In this document: positions 24,763-55,195 of the stretch, piece after piece
Position numbering within the stretch: position 1 is the first letter of the stretch
How the letters are laid out: the number at the start of each line of letters is the position of its first letter
DNA from: Phycisphaerae bacterium
GTDB taxonomy: Bacteria; Planctomycetota; Phycisphaerae; Phycisphaerales; Phycisphaeraceae
Assembly: GCA_030425705.1 (NCBI GenBank)
Contig: JAUHZU010000003.1
Location: 372,001 to 436,000, forward strand
Reading direction: 5' to 3'
DNA length: 64,000 bases
The notes under the pieces: model-generated
What the model saw: only the letters and a program-made list of their open reading frames with translations
Told to the model about the DNA's origin: nothing
The model's database searches: none
Program-made: the position numbers and the translations under genes

Positions 24763-25812
24763 TTAGCTGTCGAACTGCGCGTCGAACGCGAGGGTGCTGC
24801 TGGGGAAATCGACGGCGCGGACAAAGTCGCACGCCTCGGTCGCGCCGTGCTCGCGGTCCATGCGGGAGTCTTCCCACTCGACGCTGAGCGGCCCGGCGTA
24901 GCCGATGTCGTTGAGGGCGACGATGATCTCCTCGAAGTTGATGTCGCCGTGGCCCAGGGAGCGGAAGTCCCAGTAGCGGCGGGGGTCGGCGAAGGTGGTG
25001 TGCCCGCCGAAGACGCCCACCTCGCCCGTGCCGTGGCCCCACCAGACGTCCTTCATGTGGCAGTGGTAGATGCGGTCTTTCAATTGGTAGAGGAACCGGA
25101 CGTAGTCGACACCCTGGTAGCCCAGGTGCGAGGGGTCGTAGTTGAAGCCGAAGCGCTTGTGGCCTTTGACGGCGTCGATCGCGCGCTGCGCCGTGACGAG
25201 GTCGAAGGCGATCTCGGTGGGGTGGACCTCGAGGGCGAAGTTGATGTCTTCCTTGTCGAACGCGTCGAGGATGGGGCCGAAGCGCTTGGCGAAGTCGGCG
25301 TAGCCCTTGTCCCAGTAGGCCTGGTCGGTGGGGGGCCAGGCGTAGAGCGAGTGCCAGATCGACGAGCCGGTGAAGCCGTTGACGACGCCGGGGAAGTCGT
25401 CGCCCTTGGCGCCGGCTCTTTTGCCCCGGCCGGGCTTGTTGTTGAGGAAGCGTCGGCAGGCCTTGGCGGACTTGGCGAGCTTCTTCGCGGCGCGCTTGCG
25501 GACGCCCTCGGGCTTGCCGTCGCCCCACACGTCCTCGGGCAGCACGGACTTGTGACGCTCGTCGATGGGATCGCACACGGCCTGGCCGACCAGGTGCATG
25601 GAGATCGCGTAGCAGCTCAGGCCGAAGTCGGCGAGCATCTGCCATCGGTCCTTGCAGTACTTGTCGCTGCGCGCGGCCTGGTCGATATCGAAGTGGTCGC
25701 CCCAGCAGGCGAGCTCCAGCCCGTCGTAGCCGAAGGACGCGGCCTTCTCGCACATGGTCTCGAACGGCAGGTCGGCCCACTGGCCGGTGAAGAGCGTGAC
25801 AGGGCGGGGCAT
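24763..25812 (-). CDS. Sugar phosphate isomerase/epimerase family (xylose-isomerase-like TIM barrel)
   Basis: 349 aa. TIM-barrel protein of the AP-endonuclease-2/xylose-isomerase superfamily. Metal ligands are visible as Glu in [13 protein letters not shown] (about 35), His in EVHPTEIAF (about 202), Asp in [11 protein letters not shown] (about 232), His in HCHMKDV (about 256) and Glu in LSVEWED (about 320). The start ATG 25812 has GGAG 7 nt upstream. A basic insertion (about 120-150, Lys/Arg-rich) is unusual. These enzymes isomerise sugars or inositols; no sugar operon surrounds it. Upstream lies a copy of the repeat flanking the four-helix-bundle gene. Confidence 0.82.
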
Positions 25813-25830: not shown

Positions 25831-25860
25831 GTGAACAGTGAGGAGTGAACAGTGAACAGG
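25831..25860. repeat. Left copy of inverted repeat flanking the four-helix-bundle gene
   Basis: GTGAACAGTG, then GGAGTGAACAGTGAACAGG (ending about 25860). The right copy, in opposite orientation, lies at about 26240-26270. Confidence 0.7.
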
Positions 25861-25865
25861 TGTGG

Positions 25866-26225
25866 TTAGTCTAGCGACTTGATCAGCCCACCGAGAATCC
25901 GTGTAATTTCGGATGCTTGGCCGGAGAGCGTGTCGAAGTGTTCTTGATTGATGTACTGGTTGTCGAGTGCGATGTAGAGCTGGCAGCGAACTTCCGCACA
26001 GGAAGCCCGTGCGATAAACAGGAACTGACAGAACTCACTACGGGATCGTCGGTCGAACCCTTCTGCGATGTTGGACATGACCGAGATCACCGCCCGCCGG
26101 ATCTGATCACGGAGCGGGAAGTCACGCGAGAACGCGTGGTCTTGCGTGGCTGCATAGACCTCTCGTGTTAGGACACGCGCCTTCTGCCAAGCAACCAGAT
26201 CTTCAAACCGCTCAACCAATGCCAT
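25866..26225 (-). CDS. Four-helix-bundle protein (23S rRNA IVP / TIGR02436 family)
   Basis: 119 aa, all-helical. Diagnostic blocks: [13 protein letters not shown] at the start, [22 protein letters not shown] in the middle, and a C-terminal Ser/Glu-rich helix pair. The family was first described as proteins encoded in intervening sequences of 23S rRNA and is also scattered through genomes (the related bAvd protein assists diversity-generating retroelements). No reverse transcriptase or template repeat is in this window. The gene is bounded by inverted GTGAACAGT-type repeats and overlaps the upstream gene by 14 bp. Composition is less GC-rich than both neighbours, in line with acquisition. No activity is established for isolated members. 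Confidence 0.85.
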
Positions 26226-28146
26226 TGGGTGTTTCCGCCTGTCCACTGTTCACTGTGAACTGTTCACTCCCGCTCAGCGCGATCATGCGTTTGCGGACCT
26301 CCGCCGTCAGCTCTTCGACGGACATCCCCGGGTCGGGGGTGAACGGCGGGCCGAAGGTGACGGTGGACCGCGTGGGCCAGAGGACGTGCATGAGCATGGA
26401 CCGGCTGAGGACCGTGCCGTCGATCCAGCAGGGGACGATCGGGCACTTGGCCAGCCGGGCCATGACGGCCGCGCCGTCCTGAAACGGCTTGAGCTCGCGG
26501 TTGTCGTACTGGAGGTGGCCCTCGGGGAAGACACCGACGGCGTCGCCGTGCTTGAGCTCGCGGACGATCTGGCGGACCTGCTTGATGCCCGGCTCGGCGA
26601 TGCCGGTCTGTTTGTCGTGTTCCAGGCAGATCGGGTCGATCGCGCGCCACAGCGGCTCGGCGATACGGATGCGGTAGCTGGTGAGCATGAGCCAGCGGAC
26701 CAGGCGCGGCGACGACGACTGGATCAGGAACGGGTCCATGGCGGTGGTGTGGTTTGAGACGATCAGCACCGGGCCGTCGGCGGGGAGGTGGTGTTTGCCG
26801 TGGACGCGGAGCGTGTGCCAGGCGAAGCAGAACAGGCGGGTGAGGCGCCACAGCGCGTTGGCCATGCGGTTGGGCATCGGCCCGGAGCGGAGGTTGAGCA
26901 CGAGCCCAGCGACACCCAGCAGCAGCAGGAGCCCAGCGTTGCCCAGGACAGCGGCGGGCATCCAGTGGTCGGCATTCGGCAGCTGCCAGATCACGCCGTT
27001 GATCGCGACCGTGCCGACGGTAGAGACGATGTTGGTCAGCCCCATGACGCGGCCGCGGATGTAGTTGGGGCTGAGGACCTGCAGCAGGGAGAGGACGTTG
27101 ATGATCGCCATGTTGCCGAACACGCCGATCAGCAGGCCGGACGCGAAGTGCACCGGGCGGTAGGGGACGAGCGTGAACAGCGCCATGCAGACGGCCGAAC
27201 CGATGAGTGCGACCTTCAGGACAATCGTGGACTCGCGCTGCGTCCCGATCAGCGAGATGACGCCGGCCCCGAGGAGCATGCCCCCGCCGATCGTCGCGGC
27301 GATGAACTGGTAGTGCTTAAACAGCCCATCGCCGACCAGCCCGAAGTGCAGGTGGCCGAAGGTCAGCGCGGCGTTGTAGACCACCATCGCGCTGCCCCAT
27401 ACGGCGGTGAACACGACGATCAGGCGGAGGTGCCGGCCGTGCCCGCGCAGGTAGCGGACTGCCTGCCGCAGCGAGCGGTCGGTGCGGGCCTCGCGCGGCG
27501 CGTCGTGCGGCTTGAGGAAGGCAAAGAACGACCCGGACACCGCGTAGAAGCAGATCGCGATGATGAGCCCGGTCTCGATCGTCTCGCCCCGGCTGGCGTC
27601 CATAAAGAACGTGGCGGCGACCGCGCCGACCATCGACGCGACGACACCCAGGCCGATGATCAGCGCGTTGGCGGCCTGGAGCTGGCGTTGGGCCACGATC
27701 TGCGGGACCGTCGCGTTGCGCGTCGGGTTGAACGTCGCCGCCAGTGAGCCGACCAGCAGCAGCACCCCGTAGACCAGCCAGCGTTGATCGGCGGGGAGCA
27801 CCGGGTCGCCGACCAGACCAAAGATGCCAAACAGCGCGACGCAGAGCACCACCGCGCGCAGCTCGTCGCAGGTCAGCAGGATCCACTTGCGCGGCAGCTT
27901 GTCCGCCAGCCAGCCCGCGGTGAACGACAGCACGAGGTAGGGCAGGAAGAACCAGAACTGCGTGGCGGCGTTGAAGCTCACCCGGCCGGCGTCGGTCTCG
28001 GCCGCCATCGCGCCCAGCAGGATCAACGCCGCGGACATGATGATCCGGTCGCCGAACCCGCTCGCGGCGACCGACGCCCACATCAGCGTGAACCCGGGGT
28101 TCCGCCACAGCGGCGTCGTCGTCGGGGGCTTCCACTCGTGATCCAT
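26212..28146 (-). CDS. MFS transporter fused to a lysophospholipid acyltransferase (Aas/LplT-like)
   Basis: 644 aa. Residues about 15-405 form a 12-span major-facilitator domain (FGDRIIMSAALILLG, FTAGWLADKLPRKW as the loop 2-3 motif). Residues about 440-625 are a PlsC-type acyltransferase with VSNHTTAMDP (H-x4-D), FPEGHLQYDN and VPCWIDGT. The closest known logic is LplT-Aas, in which lysophospholipid flips inward and is reacylated. Here the order is transporter then acyltransferase in one chain, without the acyl-ACP synthetase of Aas. The final residues ([15 protein letters not shown]) are encoded by the repeat bordering the four-helix gene, so the natural C-terminus seems to have been replaced. 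Confidence 0.87.
   Translation of the reverse strand: MDHEWKPPTTTPLWRNPGFTLMWASVAASGFGDRIIMSAALILLGAMAAETDAGRVSFNAATQFWFFLPYLVLSFTAGWLADKLPRKWILLTCDELRAVVLCVALFGIFGLVGDPVLPADQRWLVYGVLLLVGSLAATFNPTRNATVPQIVAQRQLQAANALIIGLGVVASMVGAVAATFFMDASRGETIETGLIIAICFYAVSGSFFAFLKPHDAPREARTDRSLRQAVRYLRGHGRHLRLIVVFTAVWGSAMVVYNAALTFGHLHFGLVGDGLFKHYQFIAATIGGGMLLGAGVISLIGTQRESTIVLKVALIGSAVCMALFTLVPYRPVHFASGLLIGVFGNMAIINVLSLLQVLSPNYIRGRVMGLTNIVSTVGTVAINGVIWQLPNADHWMPAAVLGNAGLLLLLGVAGLVLNLRSGPMPNRMANALWRLTRLFCFAWHTLRVHGKHHLPADGPVLIVSNHTTAMDPFLIQSSSPRLVRWLMLTSYRIRIAEPLWRAIDPICLEHDKQTGIAEPGIKQVRQIVRELKHGDAVGVFPEGHLQYDNRELKPFQDGAAVMARLAKCPIVPCWIDGTVLSRSMLMHVLWPTRSTVTFGPPFTPDPGMSVEELTAEVRKRMIALSGSEQFTVNSGQAETPNGIG
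26240..26270. repeat. Right copy of inverted repeat, inside the end of the MFS-acyltransferase gene
   Basis: CTGTCCACTGTTCACTGTG followed by AACTGTTCACTCC. Reverse-complemented it gives GGAGTGAACAGT...GTGAACAGTGGACAGG, matching the left copy at 25831-25860. Confidence 0.7.
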
Positions 28147-28154
28147 GATGCGGG

Positions 28155-28160
28155 AGGATA
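28155..28160 (-). promoter_or_regulatory. -10 element of the MFS-acyltransferase gene, predicted leaderless
   Basis: On the minus strand TATCCT lies 8 nt before the ATG at 28146, with no ribosome site between. Confidence 0.4.
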
Positions 28161-28226
28161 CCAGCAACCGCGCGGCCGCTGCGGGCCCGCCGCACTTACA
28201 AAACAAACACCTGCTGAGCTTTGCGT

Positions 28227-55111: not shown

Positions 55112-55195
55112 GCCCGTGTGGCGGAACTGGCAGACGCGCTGTCTTCAGGTGGCAGTTCCCGCAAGGGAGTACAGGTTCGAATCCTGTCACGGGCA
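55112..55195 (+). tRNA. tRNA-Leu (anticodon CAG)
   Basis: Complete cloverleaf: acceptor GCCCGTG/CACGGGC, D-arm GCG/CGC, anticodon stem CTGTC/GGCAG with loop TTCAGGT (anticodon CAG at 55146-55148, reading CUG), long class II variable arm (stem CCC/GGG around TTCCCGCAAGGGAG), T-arm ACAGG/CCTGT with TTCGAAT. Discriminator A at 55195; CCA is not encoded. The adjoining integrase remnant suggests that the 3' half has served as an integration site. Confidence 0.95.

Follow-up and report, generated by a model that had tools for sequence, protein, structure and literature searches.

Inverted heptamer arrays around S23 four-helix-bundle genes: a candidate transposase-free mobile unit between bacterial protein genes

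The closest known kind to the element described here is the intervening sequence (IVS) of 23S rRNA genes. As described from Coxiella, Leptospira and others, an IVS carries one S23 gene in about 430 nucleotides (nt), has inverted ends, looks selfish and is tolerated by its host gene (PMC4990558). RNase III cuts out the Coxiella IVS, in which variable heptamers stand in tandem ahead of the S23 start, and the same report presents S23 proteins as lacking a known function and Xcc0516 as a toroidal pentamer (PMC4990558). The focus of this work is a 64,000-nt stretch of DNA from a Phycisphaerae bacterium (contig JAUHZU010000003.1, positions 372,001 to 436,000; hereafter the window), in which an S23 gene stands between two inverted arms built from seven-base words. 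Like an IVS, the window unit holds its S23 reading frame within inverted repeats; it differs in lying between two protein genes and not inside rRNA (the only RNA gene in the window is a tRNA at 55112-55195) and in having, as most strong loci do, matched arms on both sides. An earlier sequence-only reading of the window had compared the unit with such insertions in 23S rRNA, and in view of the Coxiella heptamers the comparison was apt (PMC4990558); the layout described below may include the 23S rRNA IVSs as a special case.

Descriptions of heptamer arrays are scattered and treat them as G-quadruplex or regulatory repeats (PMC4692102, PMC4679880). In Xanthomonas, the word GGGAATC, mostly in four units, forms 70-75 convergent pairs close behind upstream genes (PMC4692102), and by analogy these arrays look like a gene-less form of the armed S23 layout. 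Together with the GGGGATT arrays of Nostoc, which include few inverted pairs only, they are treated as G-quadruplex repeats, and the terms 'S23' and 'four helix' are absent from that paper (PMC4692102); the arrays of armed S23 units, by contrast, are tied to an S23 gene and change their word between units. The TAACTGA repeats of marine Beggiatoaceae are likewise intergenic heptamer arrays near start codons, but they are direct repeats of one word with one inverted repeat, and 'S23' is absent from the paper (PMC4679880). Among the papers listed in the literature searched, which did not extend to subscription papers and preprints, we found no report that links S23 or other four-helix-bundle genes outside rRNA with heptamer arms. 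Repetitive extragenic palindromic (REP) elements with their RAYT genes (REPtrons) and miniature inverted-repeat transposable elements (MITEs) also comprise gene-carrying copies beside gene-less palindromes between genes, and have constant ends. Armed S23 units share the two kinds of copy; they differ in their variable ends, in having no transposase inside and in the lack of association between Y1 and S23, and the gene between the window's arms is S23, not a RAYT (Y1). Nor do they have the constant ends of a transposon or MITE with terminal inverted repeats, as the word varies from unit to unit, even at one site.

On balance, the window feature is probably a selfish, insertion-derived unit without a transposase, composed of arm, S23 gene and arm, whose arms act at the DNA level (an 'armed S23 unit'). 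What can be read from the sequences themselves is the layout and its breadth, the match of the arms within a unit, the polarity of the gene, the occupancy of gaps between stop and start codons, presence and absence among relatives, the use of one junction by S23 of different clades, one clear case of a unit with its arms in two unrelated contexts, and gene-less hairpins of the same word. The recurrence of this layout around S23 in many bacterial phyla suggests that a type of mobile unit which inserts itself between genes has been overlooked, possibly a wholly new kind.

In the window, the inverted arms (25831-25860 and 26238-26267) span 30 nt, are 83% complementary and are separated by a spacer of 377 nt; S23 is the single gene between them, and no transposase was found inside the unit. 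The opposite-orientation repeats that the sequence-only reading had placed around a TIGR02436-type gene were thereby borne out (profile search: TIGR02436, 118.1 bits, cut-off 24; PF05635, 121.3 bits, cut-off 33.8). Additional overlapping registers of the inverted repeat occur because the arms are degenerate GTGAACA arrays. Arm pairing was tested by comparing the upstream flank with the reverse complement of the downstream flank, with flanks swapped between loci as the control, and no pair among 106 that were swapped in from other S23 loci reached the window's score.

The same test was applied to two larger samples. Within the family, S23 gave 96 matches across 36 of 51 genomes, of which 54 were fetched and tested, strong ones first (44 strong, 10 weak with at most 90 bits); the GTDB-wide sample consisted of the best 80 of at least 580 relatives, which by title span many phyla and of which 79 were usable (L153, at a contig end, was dropped). 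Arms match each other in 104 of these 133 loci. For 34 of the 44 strong family loci at most two of 106 swaps reached the locus's own score, and 17 lay above the 99.9th percentile of all 2862 swaps; arms were also present in 4 of the 10 weak loci. Across GTDB, 43 of the 79 loci were reached by none of 156 swaps and 67 by at most two. Plasmids and viral contigs, both sampled with near-identical copies included, gave a similar picture: all 11 plasmid loci fetched (from 25 matching records; two pairs near-identical) and 23 of 29 viral-contig loci (some near-identical) were reached by at most two of 159 controls, whereas phage records yielded no S23 match. The genome that holds the window has five S23 genes; besides the window's own, two are flanked by clear arms with different words (GGGTCTA; GGGTCTT/C), one (L001) has degenerate arms, and the fifth, a weak match, has none. 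An rRNA setting was not seen at the 12 S23 loci scanned, none of which gave an Rfam match to rRNA and 9 of which are armless or weakly armed.

One S23 subfamily (L029, L030, L031, L034, L035, L048, L050) is arranged differently, in that a hairpin (CTGCGGTCTCCTG...) precedes the start codon and the downstream arm is missing. The upstream hairpins of these seven loci were matched by 0 of 46 other loci, and swaps within the group often score equally; at L028 only the gene-side half of this hairpin is in view.

Arms were counted as matched at p ≤0.03, a score of at least 13 and an arm of at least 18 nt, thresholds chosen before periods and polarities were counted. In the resulting 104 loci the best period is 7 in 81, 8 in 20, 9 in two and 6 in one, and the mean match at lag 7 is 0.66, against 0.22-0.29 at other lags except lag 8 (0.39). 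The median arm length is 33 nt, with about 4.6 units per arm and four or five units in 70 of 103. Different units have different words, also at one and the same site, and some arms (L009, L040, L194) are identical inverted copies down to their unit-to-unit variants. Judged by the positions of codons, the armed S23 unit occupies the gap between a stop and a start: in 77 of 93 loci that have a same-strand upstream open reading frame (ORF) near the arm, the upstream stop falls between -20 and +40 nt relative to the arm start, and in 67 of 76 loci that have a downstream one, the downstream ATG lies at most 40 nt from the arm end. Units would persist there because they do least harm in this position. 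Arms have also been absorbed into the termini of neighbours, namely the C-terminus of an MFS protein in the window and the N-terminus of FabF in genome G019 (protein ends read by eye).

Some of these properties would also suit an RNA element, in which base pairing of the arms in the operon transcript would form a stem, cleavage of this stem by RNase III would separate the messages of the two neighbours, and selection on the RNA stem would keep the arms complementary. The GC skew of the arm upstream of the gene is positive in 93 of the 104 loci, negative in nine and zero in two, and both neighbours lie on the S23 strand in 60, all of which fits a role at transcript level; moreover, RNase III excises a 23S IVS that carries a gene of this family, the one in Coxiella, where heptamers precede S23 (PMC4990558). 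RNA pairing tolerates G-U, however, and the arm mismatches show no excess of G-U over A-C (95 vs 102, p 0.67). The absence of such a bias favours DNA-level copying over RNA selection, and RNA selection as the keeper of the pairing was rejected on this wobble test. The identity of the inverted copies at L009, L040 and L194, unit variants included, and the sharing of words with hairpins elsewhere in the genome also speak against an RNA element, which we regard as unlikely.

That the unit had been inserted, as the sequence-only reading proposed, is upheld by relatives that lack it at the window site. There, 27 of 30 loci were compared by eye (L221, L232 and L241 were left out, the start not being found). 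An S23 unit is present in L213 (the window's own), L219, L220 and L229, a gene-less hairpin of another word in L218, L230 and L237, and neither, with the MFS stop directly upstream, in others such as L223, L225, L227, L231, L240 and L242. Other units show presence and absence within the genus as well: L001, L004 and L043 are missing from the orthologous junctions of other species, and at the L003 site G016 and G017 hold other sequence instead of S23 (both by eye). Furthermore, one junction can harbour different S23 genes, with different clades between cysD and cysN in planctomycetes and in Pseudomonas and two subfamilies at the gltD junction (junction and gene names at compared sites were read by eye from protein ends). 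One unit has evidently moved, as L246 and L372, on Nostoc and Trichormus plasmids, are 78% alike in nucleotides from arm to arm within unrelated flanks, and the contexts of S23 genes on plasmids are varied.

These comparisons bear on another alternative, an ordinary resident gene: S23 would serve the host, slippage during replication would lengthen the arrays, which would be homogenised where they stand, and nothing would be mobile. S23 genes do track their sites: mapping eight shared sites onto the S23 tree takes 8 changes, with a minimum of 7 and a shuffled mean of 18.0, and none of 200 shuffles was as low. Drift of the arms between orthologs at one site and the record of heptamer arrays without S23 (PMC4692102, PMC4679880) agree with residence, too. 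A purely resident gene is contradicted by the empty sites within the genus, by the use of one junction by different S23 subfamilies and in two phyla, and by the one unit found with its arms in unrelated contexts along with the varied plasmid contexts, and we consider this alternative quite improbable.

Arms and gene nevertheless behave differently over time. The two arms of a locus have a similarity of 0.70 (n=25), whereas one and the same arm compared across orthologous sites reaches 0.37 (n=58); as S23 follows the site in the tree while the arms diverge between orthologous sites, the gene mostly stays and both arms change together. The earlier idea of a mobile unit with one gene and no transposase holds in so far as the unit looks inserted, and is not supported for a fixed-repeat unit jumping as one sequence, given that words differ and the S23 genes are mostly orthologous residents. 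According to the DNA-level reading that we favour, each arm is a tandem array of about four to five words of 7 (sometimes 8 or 9) bases, the second arm being an inverted copy of the first. Templated fold-back copying together with slippage in seven-base steps may make the arms and keep them complementary, so that both would change together and leave the gene unchanged. A pentameric S23 ring would bind the arm units and aid the persistence and spread of units and gene-less hairpins; the correspondence between a five-fold ring and four to five arm units is suggestive only. Movement would be driven by host replication or repair enzymes, because there is no transposase in the unit and a reverse transcriptase seems dispensable. 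If true, a mobile element whose ends turn over in sequence yet remain paired would follow a new principle.

Hairpins without a gene occur alongside the units. In 1.25 Mb of the window's genome, 15 inverted pairs with a period of 7 or 8 were counted, versus 2 in a mirror control; G019 has 10 in 0.4 Mb (mirror 2), and two S23-free genomes yielded 0 and 2 over 0.4 Mb (mirror 0 in both). Gene-less hairpins with the window word GTGAACA are found in the window's genome at C14:269369, C9:196225, C13:105138 and C14:480670. The doubled word AAAGTCG occurs 100 times in G038 and 6 times in G009, against a combined 9 in five other genomes (reversed control 2), and the two sampled S23 units bearing AAAGTCG are those in G038 and G009. 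Such hairpins may be satellites of the armed S23 system. Searching the genome for the repeat pair, as the sequence-only reading had suggested, thus returned further copies, including the gene-less pairs that it had listed as refuting and that we would read as satellites. The idea of one fixed terminal repeat common to all copies was rejected, since the window's genome has the 14-base GTGAACA pair three times and its other S23 units bear other words.

Gene-less hairpins beside gene-carrying units also resemble MITEs or REP doublets, as would be expected of a non-autonomous transposon or REP-like element that is mobilised in trans by Y1/RAYT or another transposase and carries S23 as cargo, and Y1 transposases were found in 7 of 7 S23 genomes tested. 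However, Y1 is equally common without S23 (7 of 8 S23-free genomes tested), and Y1/RAYT as the engine was rejected for this lack of association, other transposase families not having been searched. A transposase would be expected to need constant ends, whereas the end word varies between units. As to the target duplication that the sequence-only reading had proposed to look for, direct matches of at least 7 outside the arms occur, at fuzzy boundaries, in 6 of 103 loci against 2.3 expected, and no consistent duplication was found. Mobilisation in trans is therefore not the explanation that we would choose, and we judge it to have a low probability.

The S23 protein itself brings in one further candidate. 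Its AlphaFold2 monomer model (118 residues) is a confident four-helix bundle with a predicted local distance difference test (pLDDT) score of 95.9, and the best Foldseek match, for the monomer only, is 2gsc (Xcc0516) with a template modelling (TM) score of 0.90; the structures 2gsc and 2rld have five chains each. The model also resembles Avd (4dwl), which shares the four-helix-bundle fold, and the ribonucleoprotein of a diversity-generating retroelement (DGR; 8ub7), with TM scores to the query of 0.75-0.79. Thus S23, as a structural relative of Avd, might partner a reverse transcriptase that copies the arms. In line with such a DGR-like retro-element, the bAvd and Avd models match S23 weakly and an RVT_1 match was obtained in 5 of 7 S23 genomes tested, with two matches in the window's genome. 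Yet the Avd profiles score under their cut-offs (NF033474, 27.2 bits vs 80; PF22296, 30.5 vs 40), no RVT_1 match was found in G019 (98% complete, one contig, seven S23 matches) or G038 (87% complete), and the matches in the window's genome (G000) lie on contigs C2 and C4, with the window on C7, template and variable repeats not having been searched for. We consider a DGR-like element very improbable, and a reverse transcriptase as the engine was rejected on the two of seven genomes that have units and no match.

The DNA-level reading can be extended, with considerable doubt, to S23 proteins as a whole, which would then be the arm-binding proteins of a class of transposase-free mobile DNA. The ring would read about five 7-base words, and the word would drift freely, since fold-back copying during replication would restore both ends from a single template. 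Gene-less hairpins would be satellites, among them the GGGAATC pairs of Xanthomonas and, probably, cyanobacterial short tandem repeats, and the 23S rRNA IVSs would be units that landed in rRNA. Apart from this extension, the common layout links the S23 proteins, widespread and of solved structure, with the heptamer arrays.

Several points weigh against the armed, mobile DNA unit that we favour. The mechanism of movement and the role of S23 are inferred. With 8 changes against a minimum of 7, most S23 genes have kept their sites, so movement is rare, and a single clear moved unit with arms was found, a second pair (L340/L341) being ambiguous. Ten of the 44 strong family loci fail the swap test, including L001 of the window's own genome (reached by 9 of 106 swaps); seven of the ten have the upstream hairpin described above instead, L028 has neither, and L001 (9 swaps) and L011 (4 swaps) are intermediate. 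Weak family loci are often armless (6 of 10). The out-of-register comparison of arms (0.85 vs 0.77; 78 of 94) agrees with DNA-level copying but is biased, as the best register was picked first. As to the hairpins, 3 of the 15 periodic pairs in the window's genome look, in our judgement, like GC-rich noise, the degenerate arms at the window locus and at L001 escape the filter, and the comparison of hairpin density comprises four genomes. G017 has arrays, yet no S23 match was found in it, and G019 has AGTGAACA pairs whose word is absent from the 4 sampled of its 7 S23 loci. In the literature, the S23 protein of Coxiella is argued not to be made in vivo and to be decaying (PMC4990558), and the Xanthomonas arrays are described as generally not tied to mobile elements and as having surroundings more stable than usual (PMC4692102).

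Table 1. Features of the armed S23 unit and its neighbours, in window coordinates
Feature	Position	Strand	Remarks
Left arm (3' arm in gene sense)	25831..25860		Degenerate GTGAACA array
S23 / 23S_rRNA_IVP four-helix-bundle gene, 119 amino acids	25866..26225	minus	PF05635, TIGR02436
Right arm (5' arm in gene sense)	26238..26270		Degenerate GTGAACA array, G-rich on coding strand
MFS-acyltransferase last 18 codons and stop, through right arm into S23 start	26212..26268	minus	TGA 26212-26214
Upstream neighbour, MFS and acyltransferase protein	26212..28155	minus	PF07690, PF01553
Downstream neighbour, TIM-barrel sugar isomerase-like protein	24763..25812	minus	PF01261

The three genes at the window locus share one strand (Table 1). 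S23 is taken to start at the ATG at 26225; an alternative GTG at 26246 would give 126 amino acids. The MFS-acyltransferase reading frame (26212-28206) crosses the right arm and ends in a TGA that overlaps with the start of S23 (ATGGCATTGGTTGA, 26225-26212). Of the last 18 residues of this neighbour (26268-26215, by eye), 10 are encoded by the arm and 8 by the interior of the unit, so that the earlier figure of about 15 residues read from the right repeat is somewhat high for the arm alone and slightly low for the whole unit. The arm thus supplies part of this C-terminus, as proposed earlier. Replacement of the old C-terminus, also proposed earlier, is plausible; the tails of relatives at this site vary in length, and the ancestral end cannot be fixed from them. 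On the other side, the start codon of the TIM-barrel gene lies 18 nt from the left arm, and near full-length matches to this neighbour are present in 42 of the 51 family genomes.

Armed S23 genes also lie in cas loci, between cas6 and cas4 in Anabaena sp. 90 (L368) and between cmr2 and cmr3 in Picosynechococcus PCC 7003 (L370), where the arms share their layout with those of the S23 genes next to atpA or at the cysD-cysN junction. The S23 genes of cas loci have been counted among the functions associated with clustered regularly interspaced short palindromic repeats (CRISPR) (PMC3936711). The armed S23 at L368 and L370 may explain such reports, and it is a warning against guilt by association.

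Some gene-less hairpins lie within coding genes. Acetyltransferase-like paralogs were compared at L260, L268 and L276 and, in the window's genome, at C14:269369, C16:140951 and C13:105138 (gene name and frame by eye). The three in the window's genome have a hairpin at one coding position, two with GTGAACA and one with GGGTCTA, and the counterparts in G019 show the words GGGGCCNN, ATTCGNC, GTGAACA or, in one case, none. A hairpin within a priA-like coding gene at C14:96223 is missing in G016 (L262; gene name by eye). Two ATGGCGG hairpins, inside and at the end of a dus-like gene, are in frame at G019:C1:280336-281013 (by eye). In G017, a GCGACGCGTCGC palindrome takes the place behind the gene where G000 has GTGAACA or GGGTCTA hairpins (L257, L261), and other kinds of hairpin therefore use the same junctions. 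Finally, G019 contains a pure tandem array of 20 GGGTCTA units (C1:1465179-1465318).

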